DNA from: Flavobacteriales bacterium
GTDB taxonomy: Bacteria > Bacteroidota > Bacteroidia > Flavobacteriales > Flavobacteriaceae
DNA length: 36,988 nt
Direction of reading: 5' to 3'
NCBI GenBank assembly: GCA_027061855.1
Contig: JAMOVT010000067.1
Span: 1-36,988, forward strand
The number at the start of each line of letters is the position of its first letter. Within the stretch, counting starts at the first letter, position 1. Both the position numbers and the translations under genes were made by a program. This document shows, one piece after another, positions 5,883 to 26,731 of the stretch. A model generated the notes under the pieces. The model was not told where the DNA came from. It saw only the letters and a list, made by a program, of their open reading frames with translations, and searched no databases.

Positions 5883-7718
5883 ATGTCTGAAGAAAATCAA
5901 AAACAAGAAGAACTTCAACAGGAAGTTCAAGCAGAAGTAGTACAAGAAGAAACTACCGAAACCCCAAATTTAAAAGAAGAAAATCCCGAAAAATTCCTCG
6001 AAGAATTCAATTGGGATGCTTATGAACAAGGAATTGAACCTATCAAAGACGAAAAACTCAAAGAGTTTGAAAAACTGGTAGAAGAAAAAATCAAGGTTCT
6101 CGAAGAAAACGAAATTATCGAAGGGACCGTTACGGCCATTACCGACCGTGACGTAATTATCGATATCAATTCCAAATCGGAAGGTGTTCTTCCACGTAAT
6201 GAATTCCGTTACAATCCCGACCTTAAAGTAGGTGATAAAGTGGAAGTAATGGTTGTGCGTAAAGAAGACAAAAACGGACAATTGGTATTGTCTCACAAAC
6301 GTGCACGTCAATTAAAAGCTTGGGAAAGAGTAAACGAAGCTTTAGAAAAAGACGAAATCGTAAAAGGTTATATCAAAGCCAGAACCAAAGGAGGAATGAT
6401 TGTAGATGTATTCGGTATCGAAGCTTTCTTACCCGGTTCTCAAATCGATGTAAAACCCATTCGCGATTATGATCAATATGTAGGAAAAACCATGGAATTC
6501 AAGATTGTAAAAATCAATCCCGAATTCAAAAACGTGGTGGTTTCCCACAAAGCTCTTATCGAGGCCGACCTCGAAGAACAAAAAAGAGAAATTATCTCTC
6601 AATTGGAAAAAGGTCAAGTGCTCGAAGGAACCGTCAAAAACATCACTTCTTACGGAGTATTTGTGGATTTGGGCGGTATAGACGGATTGATCCATATCAC
6701 CGACTTGGCTTGGAAACGCATCAATCACCCCAGTGAAGTGGTAAACCTCGATGATAAACTCAAAGTGGTTATCCTTGATTTTGATGAGAAAAAATCACGT
6801 ATCCAATTAGGACTTAAACAATTGGAACCTCATCCGTGGGACAAATTGGATGAAAACCTCAAAGAAGGAGACAAAGTAAAAGGAAAAGTTTCCGTTATCG
6901 CCGATTACGGTGCATTTGTAGAAATCGAGCCCGGTGTAGAAGGATTGATTCATGTTTCCGAAATGTCTTGGAGTACTCACCTACGTTCTGCTCAAGACTT
7001 TGTTAAAGAAGGAGATGAAGTGGAAGCAGTAATTCTTTCATTGGACAGAGACGAAAGAAAAATGTCTCTCGGAATGAAACAATTGACCCCTGATCCTTGG
7101 GCGGATATCGAAACCAAATATCCCGTAGGTTCCAAACATAAAGGAATCGTAAGAAACTTTACTAATTTCGGTGCTTTTGTCGAATTGGAAGAAGGAGTAG
7201 ACGGATTGATTTATATTTCCGATTTGACTTGGAACAAAAAAATCAAACATCCTTCCGAGGTATTAAACATTGGTGACGAAGTGGAAGTAATCGTTCTTGA
7301 TGTGGATAAAGAAGGAAGAAAATTGAGCTTAGGCTTAAAACAACTTCAAGAAAATGTTTGGGATACTTATGAAACCAAATATGCCGTTGGAAGTGTTCAT
7401 GAAGGAGAAGTAAAAGAAGCCGCCGGTAAAGGTGCTACTGTTCTTATCGATAAAGAAGTGGAAGCATTTGCTCCCGGACGTTTAATGATTAAGGAAGACG
7501 GCACTAAACTTAAAAAAGGTGAAGTGGCTCCTTTCAAAATCATAGAGTTCAACAAAGATGCGCAAAAAATGGTTGTTTCTCATACCGCTACTTACAAAGA
7601 AGAAGAAGAGCGTATTGTAAGAGAAAACAAAACCAAAATGGAAAGTGAGCAAAAAGCCACACTCGGTGATTTGGATGCACTTGCCCAATTGAAAAAAGAT
7701 ATGGAAAACGGAAAATAA
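5883..7718 (+). CDS. rpsA: 30S ribosomal protein S1
   Basis: A 611-residue protein made of six S1 (OB-fold RNA-binding) repeats at roughly 76-138, 157-222, 243-311, 328-396, 414-483 and 502-568. Repeats 3-5 show the classic pattern, such as GVFVDLGGIDGLIHITDL and GAFVEIEPGVEGLIHVSEM. The N-terminal 70 residues are very rich in Glu and likely form the ribosome-anchoring segment. S1 binds mRNA and helps load it on the 30S subunit; in Bacteroidota, initiation depends little on Shine-Dalgarno pairing, consistent with the A-rich, purine-poor region before this ATG. Codon use is strongly biased, as expected for a highly expressed gene. It has its own promoter, a long leader that may be regulatory, and a strong terminator. 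Confidence 0.97.
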   Translation: MSEENQKQEELQQEVQAEVVQEETTETPNLKEENPEKFLEEFNWDAYEQGIEPIKDEKLKEFEKLVEEKIKVLEENEIIEGTVTAITDRDVIIDINSKSEGVLPRNEFRYNPDLKVGDKVEVMVVRKEDKNGQLVLSHKRARQLKAWERVNEALEKDEIVKGYIKARTKGGMIVDVFGIEAFLPGSQIDVKPIRDYDQYVGKTMEFKIVKINPEFKNVVVSHKALIEADLEEQKREIISQLEKGQVLEGTVKNITSYGVFVDLGGIDGLIHITDLAWKRINHPSEVVNLDDKLKVVILDFDEKKSRIQLGLKQLEPHPWDKLDENLKEGDKVKGKVSVIADYGAFVEIEPGVEGLIHVSEMSWSTHLRSAQDFVKEGDEVEAVILSLDRDERKMSLGMKQLTPDPWADIETKYPVGSKHKGIVRNFTNFGAFVELEEGVDGLIYISDLTWNKKIKHPSEVLNIGDEVEVIVLDVDKEGRKLSLGLKQLQENVWDTYETKYAVGSVHEGEVKEAAGKGATVLIDKEVEAFAPGRLMIKEDGTKLKKGEVAPFKIIEFNKDAQKMVVSHTATYKEEEERIVRENKTKMESEQKATLGDLDALAQLKKDMENGK

Positions 7719-20637: not shown

Positions 20638-20742
20638 CAATGACATATTCCTTTGACTATTACAAAATTTTATAAAAATTTAATGATTTTGTTATTATTT
20701 AATAAAAAAAGAAAGATAAAATGATTTTTAACAGAAATTAAG

Positions 20743-20827
20743 TGCGCACGACAGGACTTGAACCTGCACGGCCTAAACGGCCACTAGCCCCTCAAGCTAG
20801 CGTGTCTACCAATTCCACCACGTGCGC
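20743..20827 (-). tRNA. tRNA-Leu (GAG)
   Basis: An 85-base class II tRNA. The acceptor GCGCACG pairs with CGTGCGC. The anticodon stem CTAGC/GCTAG encloses loop TTGAGGG with anticodon GAG, which reads CUU and CUC. A long variable arm (TGGCCGTTTAGGCC) and the T-loop GGTTCAAGTCC are present. The CCA tail is not encoded. Confidence 0.95.
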
Positions 20828-20839
20828 AAAAAAGAGGTT

Positions 20840-20847
20840 CAAAAATA
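20840..20847 (-). promoter_or_regulatory. Possible -7 box TATTTTTG for tRNA-Leu
   Basis: A minus-strand TAnnTTTG match 13 bases upstream of the mature tRNA 5' end. It overlaps the T-tract of the tRNA-Lys terminator. Confidence 0.4.
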
Positions 20848-20880
20848 AAAAAGTTAAGCATATTTGCCTAACTTTTTTAT
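20843..20880 (-). terminator. Terminator downstream of the tRNA-Lys pair
   Basis: Stem ATAAAAAAGTTA (20845-20856) with TAACTTTTTTAT (20869-20880), extended by GC/GC after one mismatch, with a 6-base loop. On the minus strand the stem runs into TTTTTTATTTTT. Confidence 0.75.
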
Positions 20881-20888
20881 TTTATAAG

Positions 20889-20961
20889 TGACCTGGCTGA
20901 GGCTCGAACTCAGGACCCTCTCCTTAAAAGGGAGATGCTCTACCTACTGAGCTACCAGGTC
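20889..20961 (-). tRNA. tRNA-Lys (TTT), copy 2
   Basis: A 73-base tRNA with acceptor GACCTGG/CCAGGTC, D-arm AGCTCAGTAGGTAGAGC, anticodon stem TCTCC/GGAGA with loop CTTTTAA (anticodon TTT), and T-loop GTTCGAGCC. No CCA is encoded. It is identical to the copy at 21000-21072. Confidence 0.96.
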
Positions 20962-20999
20962 GGAAAATTGTTATTTCAAAAAGTTAATCTAAAAAGAAG

Positions 21000-21072
21000 T
21001 GACCTGGCTGAGGCTCGAACTCAGGACCCTCTCCTTAAAAGGGAGATGCTCTACCTACTGAGCTACCAGGTC
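21000..21072 (-). tRNA. tRNA-Lys (TTT), copy 1
   Basis: Identical in every base to the downstream tRNA-Lys, offset by 111 bp. It is the promoter-proximal copy; both are probably cut from one transcript that ends at the hairpin 20845-20880. Confidence 0.96.
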
Positions 21073-21348: not shown

Positions 21349-21678
21349 TTACATCATTCCCAGCATCAATTTTGCTTCATCACTGAGAAAATCTTTGCTC
21401 CAAGGCGGATCAAAAGTAAGTTCTACTTCTGCATTTTTTACTCCGTGAGTAGCTTTGACTCGTGTTTTTACCTCTTCGGGCAATGAATCTGCTACGGGAC
21501 AATTGGGGGCCGTTAAAGTCATTAAAACCTTGACATTATTATCATCATCGATATCAATATCATAAATGAGTCCCAAATTATAAATATCTACAGGAATTTC
21601 CGGATCATAAATTAATTTGAGCTGCTCTACTATGGCGTCCTCCAAAACTTTTTTGGGTATTTTGTGTTCTTCTGACAT
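21349..21678 (-). CDS. DUF59/MIP18-family iron-sulfur assembly protein (SufT-like)
   Basis: A 109-residue DUF59 protein: the start KKVLEDAIVEQLKLIYDPEIPVDIYNLGLIYDI and the conserved Cys segment LTAPNCPVADSLPEEV, then VELTFDPPWSKDFLSDEAKLMLGM. DUF59 proteins assist late iron-sulfur cluster maturation and form the last gene of many suf operons; the Cys in APNCP is the functional residue in relatives. It begins 4 bp after the sufE stop, so the two are co-transcribed. Confidence 0.92.
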   Translation of the reverse strand: MSEEHKIPKKVLEDAIVEQLKLIYDPEIPVDIYNLGLIYDIDIDDDNNVKVLMTLTAPNCPVADSLPEEVKTRVKATHGVKNAEVELTFDPPWSKDFLSDEAKLMLGMM

Positions 21679-21682
21679 GGTA

Positions 21683-22096
21683 TTACATATTTTGTTTTGC
21701 TAATTCTTTTATTCTTTTCATTACGGATTCCAAACCCATTTTACGGGTAGGTGACAAATGATTAGGGAGATCAATTTGATGAACAATATTAAAATCGTAT
21801 TTTTCTATTTCCTCCGCGGTATGCCCATTCAATAAGTTTAAAAGCATACTGATTACTCCTTTTCCTAAAATAGACTCGCTATCTCCTTTAAAATAGAGTT
21901 TTCCGTCCTTTTTATCCACAGTTAACCAAGAGGCAGATTGACAGCCTTCTACTTTGGTCTGTGCGTTTTTATGCTCTTCCGGTATGAGAGGAAGCTCTCC
22001 TCCCATATCCATAATATAATTGTACTTGTCGTTCCAATCGGGAAACATAGAAAAATCTTCCAGCAATTCCGCTTCCTTTTCTTTTATTGTTTTCAT
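21683..22096 (-). CDS. sufE: SufE sulfur-acceptor protein
   Basis: A 137-residue SufE. The sulfur-accepting Cys52 is in VEGCQSASW, preceded by DWNDKYNYIMDMG, with the C-terminal helix HLSPTRKMGLESVMKRI, all family blocks. SufE takes persulfide sulfur from the desulfurase SufS, stimulates it, and passes sulfur to SufB. Its partner gene sufS would be expected just upstream but is not there. The first phased repeat array begins 8 bp upstream of this ATG, so translation initiation would occur right beside the repeats. Confidence 0.95.
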   Translation of the reverse strand: MKTIKEKEAELLEDFSMFPDWNDKYNYIMDMGGELPLIPEEHKNAQTKVEGCQSASWLTVDKKDGKLYFKGDSESILGKGVISMLLNLLNGHTAEEIEKYDFNIVHQIDLPNHLSPTRKMGLESVMKRIKELAKQNM

Positions 22097-22103
22097 TTTT
22101 GTT

Positions 22104-22257
22104 AGTTATGAGTTATGAGTTCGGGGTTATGAGTTATGAGTTATGAGTTCATAGTTATGAGTTACGAGTTCATAGTTATGAGTTATGAGTTCATAGTTAT
22201 GAGTTATAAGTTCTTAGTTATGAGTTATGAGTTCGTAGTTATGCGTTTGGGGTTATT
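22104..22257 (+). repeat. Heptanucleotide array 1 (22 units of AGTTATG type)
   Basis: Twenty-two consecutive 7-bp units from 22104 to 22257 in exact register with no insertion or deletion. The main unit is AGTTATG; every third unit is usually AGTTC with a variable end (AT, GT, TT), giving a 21-bp higher-order period. All frames on both strands contain stops, so it is not coding. It lies between the sufE start and the S23 gene. Confidence 0.9.
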
Positions 22258-22286
22258 GTATGCCTATATATCATAATACATAAGAT

Positions 22287-22646
22287 TTACCTTTTCATAT
22301 TTTTCTTAGTATTAATTATAATTGTTTTTATGATTTTTAAAATAATTTCAGCCTCATTATGAAGTTCATCATAATATTTTTGATCAATATATTTTGTTTC
22401 ATGTAACAACTCCAACCAATATAATGTTTCGTCAGCTTCTTTTTGAGATATAGATAATTTATGGACAAAATCCGCTTTACTTACAGCATTATCCGCTTCT
22501 CTATAATTGGCTCCAATAGAAGTGCCGGATCTTAATATCTGTTTGCTAATAACATATTCTTTCTTTTCATTCGCCAATTTTTTGTATAAAGTTATTATTT
22601 TAACAGCAAATTGAAAAGTCAGTTTCTTAATGTTATTATCTCTCAT
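22287..22646 (-). CDS. S23-type four-helix bundle protein (IVS/Avd-like family)
   Basis: A 119-residue all-helical protein with the S23 signature: LTFQFAVKIITLYKKL, then ISKQILRSGTSIGANYREADNAVSKADFVHKLSISQKEADETLYWLELL and a final basic helix. The family was first found in intervening sequences of 23S rRNA genes and also includes free-standing genes and the Avd accessory proteins of diversity-generating retroelements; these form basic barrels that bind nucleic acid. Here no rRNA, reverse transcriptase or variable repeat is nearby. The gene interrupts the suf operon, between sufD and sufE, in the same direction, and is flanked by arrays 1 and 2 of phased 7-bp repeats. Function unknown. Confidence 0.9.
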   Translation of the reverse strand: MRDNNIKKLTFQFAVKIITLYKKLANEKKEYVISKQILRSGTSIGANYREADNAVSKADFVHKLSISQKEADETLYWLELLHETKYIDQKYYDELHNEAEIILKIIKTIIINTKKNMKR

Positions 22647-22676
22647 GTTTTAATTTTTTATAAATATACGTTTTTT

Positions 22677-22774
22677 AGTTATGAGTTATGAGTTACGAGT
22701 TCATAGTTATGAGTGTTGAGTTATGAGTGTTGAGTTATGAGTGTTGAGTTATGAGTGTTGAGTTTGTAGTTATT
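22677..22774 (+). repeat. Heptanucleotide array 2 (14 units)
   Basis: Fourteen contiguous 7-bp units in exact register. It starts like array 1 (AGTTATG, AGTTACG, AGTTCAT) and then alternates AGTTATG with AGTGTTG. Orientation is the same as array 1. It lies 30 bp upstream of the S23 start codon, so S23 transcripts may run through it. The 58 bp between arrays 2 and 3 are AT-rich without a recognised feature. Confidence 0.9.
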
Positions 22775-22832
22775 GGTTAAACTCTTTATAAAAATACAAC
22801 TTATTTTCTATAACCCAAACAAAACTATACAC

Positions 22833-22944
22833 TTGTACTACACACTACACACTGCACACTACGAACTACGCACTACGCACTACGAACTCCACACTACGAA
22901 CAACACACTAAGAACTCCACACTACGAACTCCACACTACACACT
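22833..22944 (-). repeat. Heptanucleotide array 3 (16 units, inverted)
   Basis: Sixteen contiguous 7-bp units read on the minus strand, types AGTGTGG, AGTTCGT, AGTGCGT and AGTGTGT, in exact register. It shares the AGT start of arrays 1 and 2 but is inverted relative to them, and its first unit overlaps the sufD stop codon TAG (22945-22943). Confidence 0.88.
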
Positions 22945-24295
22945 AATTAGGAACGGTACATTGCAATATACATTTTTCACATACATCCAGTTCTCCGTTT
23001 AATCGTTTTTTTATCAAATCTTTAGTCGGTTCTATTAATTCGGGAATCTTAATCGCCTCGATCAATTCGCCTGTAAAAGCATATAATTGTAAAAGTTGGG
23101 CATCACGTTTTGATATTCCGCGTTGCCTGATATAAAATAAAGCTTCATTATCAAGCTGTCCGGTGGTGGAACCATGGCTACAACTCACATCATCGGCATA
23201 GATTTCCAAGAAAGGTTGCGAACTGATTTTGGCCTTATCCGTCAATAAGATATTGTCGTTTTTTTGATAAGCATTTGTCTGCTGCGCATCTTTCTTAACC
23301 AGAATTTGTCCGTTAAAAAATCCTTTTCCGCTGTCATCTAAAATCCCTTTGAATTTTTGATTGGAATAACTCCCTTCCGATGAATGCGATATAAATATCA
23401 CATTATCGAATTGTTGTGTTTTATCGACCAAATATAATCCGTAATGATCCACTTCCACTTCTTTACCTAAAATATCGGCAAATTGTTCATTGCGCAAAAG
23501 TTTTCCGTTTAATTGATAGAAGTTGGTATAAAACCGTGCTTTTTCTTTTACTTCAGAAAACGAATTGGAAAACAAAGCACTTAAATTATTAATATTTTGA
23601 TATTTATACCAATTGAGTTCGGCATTTTCTTTGACAAAAATTTCACTGTCAAAAGTAGCAAAATGACTTCTGTGTTCATTGGAATCATCACATTGAATAA
23701 TATTCACTTGTGCATCTTTTTCTATTATCACAAGATTACGAGTATTGATTAATGCATCTACCGGAGCATCCAGTTTTTGTGAGATTTGCAGATTGAAGTT
23801 CTTCACATTTTCCGGCACATACATAAAAAAACCATCCGTAAATAAGGCCGTATTGAGATAGTCCATAGGATTGGTGGATTTTTCGGTCAAACGATTGAAA
23901 TATTTTTGGACCAATTCGGGATATTTTCCGGCTGCTTGCTTGATACTTCCCAATAAAACTCCATTTTCAAGTTCTTGAAAATCACCCGCATAATGGCCGT
24001 TAACCAAATAAATATTCTTGGTTTTCAGCTCGGGCACAATACATATATCATTTTCATAAGAGTCTTTGATCACTGAGTGAGCTACCGGATGATAATAACT
24101 ATCCAACAACCGGTTTAAATTGGTTTTTCTCCATTTCTCATCTTTTAAAGTGGGAAAACCTTTTTCTTTAAATTTTTGAAAAGCTTCGATACGGGCTTTT
24201 CTTATAAAACCGGGCTCCTCTTGTATTTGTTTTGAAAAAGTATTTTCAAAAAAATCAATGATATGTTGTTCTAAAAGTTTTCTCGTTCTAGGCAT
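22943..24295 (-). CDS. sufD: SufD, Fe-S cluster scaffold complex subunit
   Basis: A 450-residue SufB/SufD-family protein. The N-terminal helical part (KARIEAFQKFKEKGFPTLKDEKWRKTNL) and the long right-handed beta-helix with ISHSSEGSYSNQKFKGILDDSGKGFFNGQILVKKDAQQTNAYQKNDNILL and SCSHGSTTGQLDNEALFYIRQRGI are the conserved SufD blocks, including His in CSHGS. SufD joins SufB and SufC in the SufBC2D scaffold that builds new clusters. ATG 24295 is chosen: it overlaps the sufC stop by 8 bases, typical of translational coupling, and the upstream 34 residues only mirror the sufC sequence in another frame. A run of phased repeats starts exactly at its stop codon. Confidence 0.95.
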   Translation of the reverse strand: MPRTRKLLEQHIIDFFENTFSKQIQEEPGFIRKARIEAFQKFKEKGFPTLKDEKWRKTNLNRLLDSYYHPVAHSVIKDSYENDICIVPELKTKNIYLVNGHYAGDFQELENGVLLGSIKQAAGKYPELVQKYFNRLTEKSTNPMDYLNTALFTDGFFMYVPENVKNFNLQISQKLDAPVDALINTRNLVIIEKDAQVNIIQCDDSNEHRSHFATFDSEIFVKENAELNWYKYQNINNLSALFSNSFSEVKEKARFYTNFYQLNGKLLRNEQFADILGKEVEVDHYGLYLVDKTQQFDNVIFISHSSEGSYSNQKFKGILDDSGKGFFNGQILVKKDAQQTNAYQKNDNILLTDKAKISSQPFLEIYADDVSCSHGSTTGQLDNEALFYIRQRGISKRDAQLLQLYAFTGELIEAIKIPELIEPTKDLIKKRLNGELDVCEKCILQCTVPN

Positions 24296-25070
24296 TTTGT
24301 TTTGATTTTTTATATTCTTCTTCAATCCATGCATATCCCTTTTCTTCCAATTCTTTGGCAAGGTTTTTATCTCCCGTTTTGACAATTTTTCCGTCATACA
24401 TTACATGCACAATATCCGGAACTATATGGTCGAGAAGACGTTGATAATGAGTAATTACCAAAAAGGCATTATCATTATTACGCAATTTATTCACGCCATC
24501 TGCTACGGCTTTCAAAGCATCTATATCCAATCCGGAATCGGTCTCATCGAGAATAGCTAAATCCGGCTGTAACATCGCCATCTGGAAAATTTCATTCTTC
24601 TTTTTTTCCCCGCCCGAGAAACCTTCATTTACCGAACGGTTTTTCATTTTGTCGGGCATATTGACCATTTTTTGTTTCTCTCGATACATTTTCAAGAACT
24701 CGCCGGGTTTGATAGGGTCTTGCCCTTTGTATTTTCTTTGCGCATCGATAGCCGCTTTCATAAAATTAGTCATGCTCACTCCGGGAATTTCCACAGGGTA
24801 TTGGAATCCCAGAAAAATACCTTCCAAGGCTCTTTCTTCGGGGTCTAAGTCCAAAAGATTTTTACCTTTGTAGATGATTTCCCCGTCGGTTACTTCATAG
24901 CCTTCTTTTCCAGTAATCACATTAGCTAACGTACTTTTTCCGGTTCCATTCGGTCCCATAATGGCGTGGACTTCACCGGGATTGATGGTTAAATTCAATC
25001 CTTTTATGATTTCTTTATCGCCAATTTTGGCATGTAGATTTTTTATTTGTAATAAAGGTTTTTTTTTCAT
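24288..25070 (-). CDS. sufC: SufC ATPase
   Basis: A 260-residue ABC-type ATPase that powers the SufBC2D scaffold in the cytoplasm. Walker A is GPNGTGKST (39-47), the signature is NEGFSGGEKKKNE, and Walker B is LAILDETDSGLD followed by the switch His in VITHYQR. These are typical SufC forms, including the SGLD D-loop. It sits between sufB (203 bp away, across repeat arrays) and sufD (8-base overlap). Confidence 0.97.
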   Translation of the reverse strand: MKKKPLLQIKNLHAKIGDKEIIKGLNLTINPGEVHAIMGPNGTGKSTLANVITGKEGYEVTDGEIIYKGKNLLDLDPEERALEGIFLGFQYPVEIPGVSMTNFMKAAIDAQRKYKGQDPIKPGEFLKMYREKQKMVNMPDKMKNRSVNEGFSGGEKKKNEIFQMAMLQPDLAILDETDSGLDIDALKAVADGVNKLRNNDNAFLVITHYQRLLDHIVPDIVHVMYDGKIVKTGDKNLAKELEEKGYAWIEEEYKKSKQNA

Positions 25071-25079
25071 TTTATTATT

Positions 25080-25135
25080 GTTTAATTGTCGAATCGTTGA
25101 ATCGTTTATTTGTTGAATTGTTTAATTGATGAATT
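25080..25135 (+). repeat. Octanucleotide array (7 units of GTTGAATT type)
   Basis: Seven contiguous 8-bp units in register: GTTTAATT, GTCGAATC, GTTGAATC, GTTTATTT, GTTGAATT, GTTTAATT, GATGAATT. It begins 10 bp upstream of the sufC ATG, mirroring the position of array 1 before sufE. Confidence 0.75.
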
Positions 25136-25229
25136 TTACTTGGCATTACATTTTTTTCTATCATATCTCATATCTTTTAACTGCATAAATTTGTACAAAG
25201 AGGTAAAACCATGATGGAATTCCATTTCG

Positions 25230-25264
25230 TTCCACTTTTCTCTTTCCACTTTCCACTTTTTACT
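25230..25264 (-). repeat. Heptanucleotide array 4 (5 units of AGTGGAA type)
   Basis: Five contiguous 7-bp units read on the minus strand: AGTAAAA, AGTGGAA, AGTGGAA, AGAGAAA, AGTGGAA. It starts 9 bp after the sufB stop, mirroring array 3 after sufD. The 95 bp between this and the octamer array show no feature. Confidence 0.75.
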
Positions 25265-25273
25265 TTATCCTAT

Positions 25274-26731
25274 TTACCCCACACTTCCTTCCAAGCTAAT
25301 TTCCAATAATTTTTGTGCTTCCACGGCAAATTCCATCGGTAACTGATTTAATACTTCTTTGGCGTACCCATTGACAATCATATTCACCGCCGATTCTTCA
25401 TCCAATCCGCGTTGTTGCAAATAAAAAAGTTGCTCTTCGGAAATTTTTGAAGTCGTCGCTTCATGCTCCACAATGGAAGAACGGTTTTCTACATCGATAT
25501 ATGGGAAAGTATGCGCTCCGCATTGATCACCCATTAATAATGAATCACAAACGGAATAATTACGTGAATTGATTGCTCCACGTTTTATATCTACCAATCC
25601 GCGATAGGAATTCTGGCTTTTTCCGGCGGATATCCCTTTACTGATGATGGTGCTTTTTGTATTTTTCCCTATATGAATCATCTTTGTTCCGGTATCCGCT
25701 TGTTGGTGATTATTGGTCACCGCAACCGAATAAAATTCGGCTATGGAATTATCTCCTTTCAAAATAGTTGAAGGGTATTTCCAAGTAATGGCCGAACCTG
25801 TCTCGACTTGTGTCCAGCTTATTTTGGAATGGTTTCCTTTGCAGATACCGCGTTTGGTGACAAAATTGAAAATTCCTCCTTTTCCTTCTTTGTCTCCGGG
25901 ATACCAGTTTTGCACAGTTGAGTATTTGATTTCCGCATCTTTTTTGGCAATGAGTTCCACCACTGCGGCGTGTAATTGATTTTCATCTCTTTGCGGAGCC
26001 GTACATCCTTCGAGATAACTTACATAGCCGCCTTCTTCTACAATTACAAGTGTGCGTTCAAATTGTCCGGTTCCGGCCGAATTAATCCTGAAATAACTCG
26101 ATAATTCCATAGGGCTGCGGACTCCTTTGGGAATAAACACAAAAGAACCGTCCGTAAAAACCGCCGAGTTCAAAGCCGCATAATAATTGTCGGAATACGG
26201 AACCACAGAACCCAAATATTGTTTTACCAAATCGGGATAATCACGAATGGCTTCACTAATCGGGCAAAATATAATTCCCCGTTCTTTCAGTTCTTTCTGA
26301 AAAGTGGTTTTCACCGATACACTGTCAAAAACCGCATCCACAGCTACTCCCGAAAGGGCTTTTTGTTCGTCAAGCGGTATTCCCAGTTTCTCATATACTT
26401 CCAATATCTCGGGATCCACTTCATCGAGACTTTCCAATTTCTTCTTTGGTTTGGGTTTGGCATAATAAATCAATTCGTTAAAATTGATTTTGGGTATGAC
26501 TAAGTGGGCCCATTTAGGCTCTTCCATTTTGAGCCAGGCATGATACGCTTTCAGGCGAAACTCCAATACCCATTCCGGTTCTTGTCGTATTTCCGAGATT
26601 TTCCTTATAATTTCCTCATTCAATCCGGGAGGAAATTTTTCAGTTTCTATATCCGATTGAAATCCGTATTTATATTCTTGTTCGGTAACCTCTTTCAGGA
26701 CCTTATCTTGATGTTCTTCTTTCGATAACAT
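25274..26731 (-). CDS. sufB: SufB, Fe-S cluster scaffold complex subunit
   Basis: A 485-residue SufB, the subunit of SufBC2D that receives sulfur from SufE and holds the nascent cluster. The conserved late block [22 protein letters not shown] contains the key Cys and is followed by [22 protein letters not shown] with the conserved Glu. The mid part [23 protein letters not shown] and [22 protein letters not shown] is also diagnostic. It is the first gene of the operon and has a consensus promoter; no IscR/SufR-like regulator gene is nearby. Confidence 0.97.

Follow-up and report, generated by a model that had tools for sequence, protein, structure and literature searches.

What occupies the space between sufD and sufE in a flavobacterial suf operon in which sufS is lacking? 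The window analysed here is the whole stretch of 36,988 nucleotides of contig JAMOVT010000067.1 (assembly GCA_027061855.1; Flavobacteriales bacterium, family Flavobacteriaceae), and between these two genes it carries a small S23-type gene set among tandem heptad arrays. According to the original prediction, this was a repeat-bounded S23 cassette through which sufS had been replaced or relocated. We asked what the cassette is, and whether it has anything to do with the missing sufS.

The sufD-sufE interval and its heptad arrays

Profile matches bore out the gene order sufB-sufC-sufD, S23, sufE-DUF59 that had been proposed for the minus strand, and TRF confirmed that three heptad arrays extend from the sufD stop codon to just before the sufE ATG. 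The features of the locus are as follows.

25274-26731, minus strand: sufB (NF008773, 5.2e-268)
25071-25273, minus strand: sufB-sufC gap with a period-8 array and a short period-7 array (TRF)
24288-25070, minus strand: sufC (TIGR01978, 4.6e-110)
22943-24397, minus strand: sufD, upstream of the cassette (TIGR01981, 4.5e-69; PF01458)
22837-22945, minus strand: outer upstream arm of degenerate AGTnnnn heptads, overlapping the sufD stop codon (TRF, period 7, 15.6 copies)
22677-22773, minus strand: inner upstream array, in the opposite orientation, nnnnACT (TRF, 13.9 heptads)
22287-22646, minus strand: S23-type four-helix-bundle gene, 119 aa (PF05635, 1.3e-27; TIGR02436, 6.4e-32)
22104-22256, minus strand: downstream arm, nnnnACT, ending 7-8 bp before the sufE ATG (TRF)
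21683-22096, minus strand: sufE, downstream of the cassette (PF02657, 1.7e-39)
21349-21678, minus strand: sufT, a DUF59/SufT-type SUF-associated gene (TIGR02945, 4.6e-44)

The S23 gene is the sole ORF of at least 60 aa in the 846-bp interval (22097-22942). Its product is a full-length member of the family, matching positions 1-105 of the 106 of PF05635 with 96.6 bits (cut-off 33.8) and TIGR02436 with 110 bits (cut-off 24), and 2rld (9.4e-36) was its only solved relative found by sequence at an E value of 0.01. The sufB-sufC gap of the window was searched for an S23 remnant and none was found (best E 0.015). Over the whole window Rfam reported three tRNAs and nothing else; these lie at 20742-21072 on the minus strand, one being Leu(gag) and two Lys(ttt), and the two Lys genes have the same Rfam score.

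The downstream arm has a period of 7 (18.6 copies) over 22104-22233 and a period of 14 from there to 22256. The outer upstream arm was complementary to the inner upstream array with a score of 30 (best shuffle 29) and to the downstream arm with a score of 26 (best shuffle 25); neither score was reached in 500 single-base shuffles, which destroy the period of the arrays, and the margins over the best shuffle are narrow. The inner upstream array repeats the downstream one in direct orientation (score 67, 0/500 shuffles). As in an intervening sequence (IVS), the S23 ORF lies between inverted repeats able to pair, namely the outer arm with the two other arrays; its location is between sufD and sufE and not in an rRNA gene. 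When folded as RNA, the interval beat 20 of 20 shuffles (z -3.7). The arms of the window are atypical in that the array adjoining the S23 start is a direct, not an inverted, copy of the downstream array, and with 160-nt flanks the window scored only 10 for complementarity, ranking 28th of 49. The source genome is a draft of 117 contigs and 95% completeness, and the repeats of the window are taken as assembled.

sufS in the source genome and its relatives

The absence of sufS held for the genome as a whole. In a survey of 60 genomes of the family, one per genus, TIGR01979 was found above cut-off in 59, the sole exception being the source genome, whose SUF operon is thus incomplete as regards sufS. 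A PF00266 search of this genome returned two class V proteins, a 492-aa enzyme and one of 358 aa which by reading we take to be SerC, besides weak matches. The same search found a SufS/IscS-type enzyme in none of the three genomes of the genus that were examined (G000, G060 and G061): the matches were the 492-aa enzyme (as a fragment in G060), a SerC-like protein in two genomes and weak ones, and the sole strong match of G060 was a 73% orthologue of the 492-aa enzyme and not SufS. Since all three genomes are drafts of 90-95% completeness, and G061 gave no sufE match either, a genus-wide loss of sufS rests mainly on G000 and G060. In both of these, where the suf locus was seen, sufBCD, sufE and sufT are kept.

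The expectation that sufS normally lies between sufD and sufE was partly correct. From 39 sufE matches 30 were taken, 28 of them from other genera, and in 18 of these 28 a co-oriented sufS was located 0-958 bp upstream of sufE. All 7 loci whose flank gave a sufD match had sufD upstream of sufS. In G060, of the same genus, the order is sufB, S23 fragment (70 aa), sufC, sufD, sufE and sufT, and its sufD-sufE gap of 162 bp has neither S23 nor a heptad array nor sufS. The palindrome AAAGACAAGGCATGCCTTGTCTTT is present in this gap (L064, about 6530-6560). In this sister species, S23 has reached another gap of the suf operon.

The cassette does occupy the slot that holds sufS in many relatives, in a genome without SufS, and both facts speak for its having replaced or displaced the gene. 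We nevertheless regard this as very improbable: G060 has lost sufS although there is no S23 in that gap, so that the loss does not depend on the cassette; no SufS/IscS-type enzyme was found in any of the three genomes of the genus; and S23 cassettes elsewhere sit between neighbouring operon genes. The proposed replacement or relocation was therefore not supported, and the absence of sufS looks like a separate loss common to the sister genomes. As for the source of sulfur, most of the 492-aa class V enzyme could be aligned with SufS structures (7.5e-29), and the alignment retained three functional residues, namely the second histidine of MEHH, the HK-motif lysine and the RxGxxCA cysteine. This enzyme is plausibly the likeliest remaining sulfur donor and a candidate stand-in for SufS. 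The cassette in the window is probably transcribed together with suf and probably supplies no sulfur.

S23 cassettes and their arms at other loci

The description of the S23 gene as a repeat-bounded cassette gained support from similar cassettes at many sites. S23 was present in 116 of 148 sampled Bacteroidota genomes, with 1-16 copies each. A check for other S23 genes in the source genome revealed two more, both in gaps of the nuo operon (gene names assigned by reading the sequence) and both with inverted repeats of their own, built of different units. The two nuo copies are sisters in the tree, 66% identical to each other and distant from the window copy, which suggests movement of a copy inside the nuo operon. 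The genus yielded no empty nuo site, G060 and G061 having given no nuoB orthologue. The window S23 shares 62% identity with Ancylomarina copies, about 60% with copies from the hisA-hisF site of Flavobacterium, and 50%, over a shorter stretch, with the G060 fragment. Among the three S23 copies of the source genome the arm units all differ, with no shared terminal inverted repeats of the transposon, MITE or REPIN type, and one pattern searched from the window arrays recurred at just one other place; the arms are therefore not carried along as fixed sequence. No S23 relatives were confirmed in viral contigs.

Two further observations concern the placement of arrays and genes. Heptad arrays with no adjoining S23 were seen on contig C70 of G000 as well as at L065 (7567-7602, 8015-8199, 12782-12885 and 18439-18589) and L066 (1790-1963), and one or more of these arrays occupy a nuo operon gap. 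Antisense S23 copies at L141, L142, L127, L147, L165 and L174 share one repeatedly used gap, whose neighbours read as genes for an ABC-transporter ATPase and an efflux adaptor.

Complementarity of the arms was scored between the 160-nt upstream flank and the reverse-complemented downstream flank at 110 S23 loci carrying 116 S23 ORFs. Seventeen loci had been found with the window S23 (Bacteroidota and single draft genomes of Ignavibacteria, Treponema, Chloroflexi and Oscillospiraceae; L098, cut by a contig end, was dropped), 90 came from a search of Bacteroidota and 3 from the source genome. The 90 comprised 30 best-per-genome loci and 60 hand-picked, hence non-randomly, from about 150 best-scoring rows, and the whole sample includes homologous sites of related genomes. 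The mean same-locus score was 18.9 as compared to 11.2 across loci, and the observed sum was reached in none of 20,000 permutations. The cross-locus 95% point was exceeded by 60 of the 110 loci and the 99% point by 31; 50 loci were not above the 95% point, and 10 ranked in the lower half for complementarity. Control comparisons over the same loci gave 13.2 (direct), 11.4 (reversed only) and 12.4 (complemented only). Self-match of the flanks at lags of 7, 14 and 21 was 0.37, 0.35 and 0.34 upstream and 0.36, 0.34 and 0.32 downstream, all other lags between 3 and 24 giving 0.25-0.31. When non-S23 control genes of 300-1200 nt were scored, 37 of 237 were above the 95% point and 7 above the 99% point; one of these 7, with scores above 21, is probably the S23 gene of L207.

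The excess persisted among loci at shared sites. For 44 loci in 11 such sites the same-locus score was 18.7 versus 14.7 for cross pairs within a site (0 of 20,000 within-site permutations), although in the hisA-hisF group (7 loci) the same-locus score of 16.6 was not above that of cross pairs (17.0). The 28 loci of a second Flavobacterium site gave 20.6 and 16.0 (0 of 20,000 permutations), and the unit type of one arm predicted that of the other (rho 0.76). Both arms change together at one and the same site.

For each of these two Flavobacterium sites 30 loci were taken, from the genomes closest to the query and thus non-randomly; at hisA-hisF all were of the genus of G096, which we take to be Flavobacterium from the hisF of G096, with up to 97% identity to the hisF of a named Flavobacterium. 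With L216 excluded, where the hisA match fell on hisF itself at a contig end, the 29 measurable hisA-hisF loci consisted of 2 bare junctions, 23 hairpins without S23, 2 loci with S23 by profile (L197 and L207) and 2 with other genes. The gaps without S23 were 28-105 bp long and all 23 folded with z below -2 against mononucleotide shuffles; the hairpin without S23 is thus the common state at this site. The other genes were a NIPSNAP-like ORF, named by reading, at L204 and two small ORFs at L202. The S23 gene at hisA-hisF is under purifying selection (median dN/dS 0.063, 27 pairs). At the second site S23 was detected by profile in 27 of 30 loci, although in one of the 27 no ORF of the expected length was intact; 2 loci were without S23 and 1 was cut by a contig end.

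Some copies lie inside genes. Taking as in-gene any S23 ORF enclosed by a longer open frame that reaches 90 nt or more beyond it at either end, we found 5 among 110 S23 ORFs; ORFs and neighbours were called by simple scripts, and spurious neighbours persist around the in-gene copies. Every host frame matches a DNA methylase, three being N6_N4_Mtase and two of the N6_Mtase/Eco57I/MmeI type, and in all five the host frame reads through S23 in the +2 frame with no stop codon, whereas at the other 105 loci neither alternative frame was open in any case (medians of 10 and 11 stops). After synonymous codon shuffling the +2 frame was open in 47 (L106), 196 (L122), 423 (L131), 156 (L150) and 0 (L172) of 2000 shuffles; openness is thus eased by base composition in some of the copies and striking in others. 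A complementarity score of 24 marks clear arms in one of these copies; two are borderline, at 16 and 15, and the remaining two, at 12 and 7, are without arms. The five form one clade (support 99/86) and may therefore trace to few events. Two open frames in one stretch of DNA make these copies a case of natural overlapping coding. The methylase host at L131 also has a DUF559 (restriction-endonuclease-like) domain beside a repeated SPTGRGAGGEG at about residues 984-1088, perhaps a second insert of like kind.

Maintenance of the arms and kinship of the cassettes

The nearest relatives of the cassettes are the IVS of 23S rRNA, for instance in Coxiella and Leptospira, which likewise have an S23-family ORF, a stem of terminal inverted repeats and a sporadic distribution (PMC4990558). 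In Coxiella, GACAGAT heptamers in two or three copies, depending on the strain, stand just upstream of the S23 ORF, tandem heptamers in this position being common to that IVS and to the cassettes; the terminal inverted repeats form a 28-bp stem, and the RNase III site is at the first heptamer. That report also describes the rRNA helices as each having a small tetraloop, which the stem-loop of the element replaces, in keeping with a preference for the tips of hairpins. Purifying selection on S23 is strong at one site here, whereas the ORF in Coxiella is described there as decaying. Again unlike the rRNA elements, the cassettes are located in operon gaps or methylase genes and their arms are degenerate heptad arrays that differ from locus to locus. 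The cassette can be classed as a variant of S23 intervening sequences, and there is evidence that its arms are paired and evolve together.

Other systems share single features with it. Avd of diversity-generating retroelements has a related four-helix fold and is a pentamer, and as Avd is among the relatives of S23 a mobile or RNA-linked origin had been called conceivable; in the source genome, the one draft searched, PF00078 found no reverse transcriptase, so a retroelement link was not supported there. REP/REPIN sequences with RAYT transposases and MITEs are short intergenic palindromes with or without an associated gene, but the three copies in the source genome have no arm sequence in common and the associated gene is S23. 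Eukaryotic foldback elements have inverted ends built of short tandem repeats, as the cassettes do; hosts, size and cargo differ, and no homology is claimed. TAACTGA heptamer arrays, recorded from Beggiatoaceae, Cyanobacteria and five Bacteroidetes, are also heptad arrays in intergenic gaps but have one fixed unit and are mostly direct (PMC4679880); neither 'S23' nor 'four helix' appears as a term in that paper. In Flavobacterium columnare a four helix bundle gene is flanked by the genes for guanylate kinase and nicotinic acid mononucleotide adenylyltransferase; it is likewise an S23-type gene in an operon-like gap, but is listed in a phage region, and the table passages that list it do not discuss repeats (PMC5524665). 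Among the papers listed by searches of an open-access library, the Coxiella report alone concerned S23 elements, and none tied operon S23 genes to inverted heptad arms.

Are the arms kept complementary as RNA or as DNA? If they paired in the transcript and RNase III cut there, the S23 segment would be excised as an mRNA intervening sequence, leaving sufBCD and sufE-T mRNAs. The Coxiella element, with its S23 ORF, heptamers, stem and RNase III cut, is a precedent (PMC4990558), and both the fold of the window interval and the co-orientation of S23 with both neighbours in 86 of the 110 ORFs that had both neighbours called agree with this reading. However, co-orientation is at the background level of the same loci (152 of 197), so that S23 showed no preference for sense orientation, and 9 of the 110 ORFs are antisense to both neighbours. 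Pairing in the transcript, if it kept the arms complementary, would be expected to tolerate G-U above A-C mismatches, yet G-U and A-C numbered 121 and 115 over 67 loci, 14 and 14 over 6 antisense loci and 10 and 21 in 20 hisA-hisF hairpins, the cross-locus control being 1863 and 1713; at the second Flavobacterium site they were 23 and 49 (p 0.003), an excess of A-C. With no preference for G-U, RNA-level selection on the arms was not supported. Excision would, moreover, break the five in-gene copies, whose frames stay open. We consider mRNA excision unlikely, and because of the missing G-U preference and the nine antisense copies we put maintenance of the arms at the DNA level first.

The arrays could also be ordinary intercistronic hairpins, REP-like and serving control of translation or decay, with S23 a host protein that binds them to tune the operon. 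The predominance of the S23-less state at hisA-hisF fits this, as does purifying selection on S23 at one site; palindromic elements occur by thousands in two Flavobacterium genomes (PMC12306157), and heptamer repeats ahead of start codons have been put forward as sites for regulators (PMC4679880). Still, S23 is found between arms at unrelated operons and in a patchy distribution, and if the protein recognised a specific sequence, arms that vary from copy to copy would not be expected; we hold this explanation, too, to be improbable. An assembly artefact, in which repeats joined unrelated pieces of a draft genome, is suggested by the 117 contigs and by repeats of 100-150 bp, but is hardly credible when the same architecture is present in unrelated genomes, including the single-contig G140, G199 and G231, and at two further sites of the source genome.

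The reading we prefer is that the sufD-sufE interval is an S23 foldback cassette maintained at the DNA level, one of many across Bacteroidota and in a few draft genomes of other phyla, lying in operon gaps and occasionally inside genes, and we think it about evenly balanced between right and wrong. We infer both the movement of S23 and its role in what follows. The arms would fold into a DNA hairpin or cruciform, and replication-linked template switching between them, of the kind known from correction of quasi-palindromes, could keep them matched while their sequence drifts. A pentameric S23 protein may bind the hairpin fold and favour keeping or copying of the loop, and the cassettes would settle where an extra hairpin is harmless, such as operon gaps, the tips of rRNA helices and tolerant points in methylase genes. 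Somewhat doubtful, though worth entertaining, is the broader proposal that S23 is the cargo of a wide class of mobile hairpin cassettes with no need of a transposase, which would settle between hairpin arms such as those of rRNA helix tips and intercistronic heptad hairpins, whose arms are continually rewritten yet kept complementary by DNA-level copying, whose in-gene copies are dual-coded and so spare the host protein, and of which the 23S rRNA IVS would be a special case.

S23 proteins are common small proteins of Bacteroidota, known mainly from rRNA IVS. If S23 is tied to inverted heptad hairpins of operon gaps, the family would gain a testable substrate, a class of intergenic repeats would gain a protein, and the rRNA intervening sequences would gain a likely origin.
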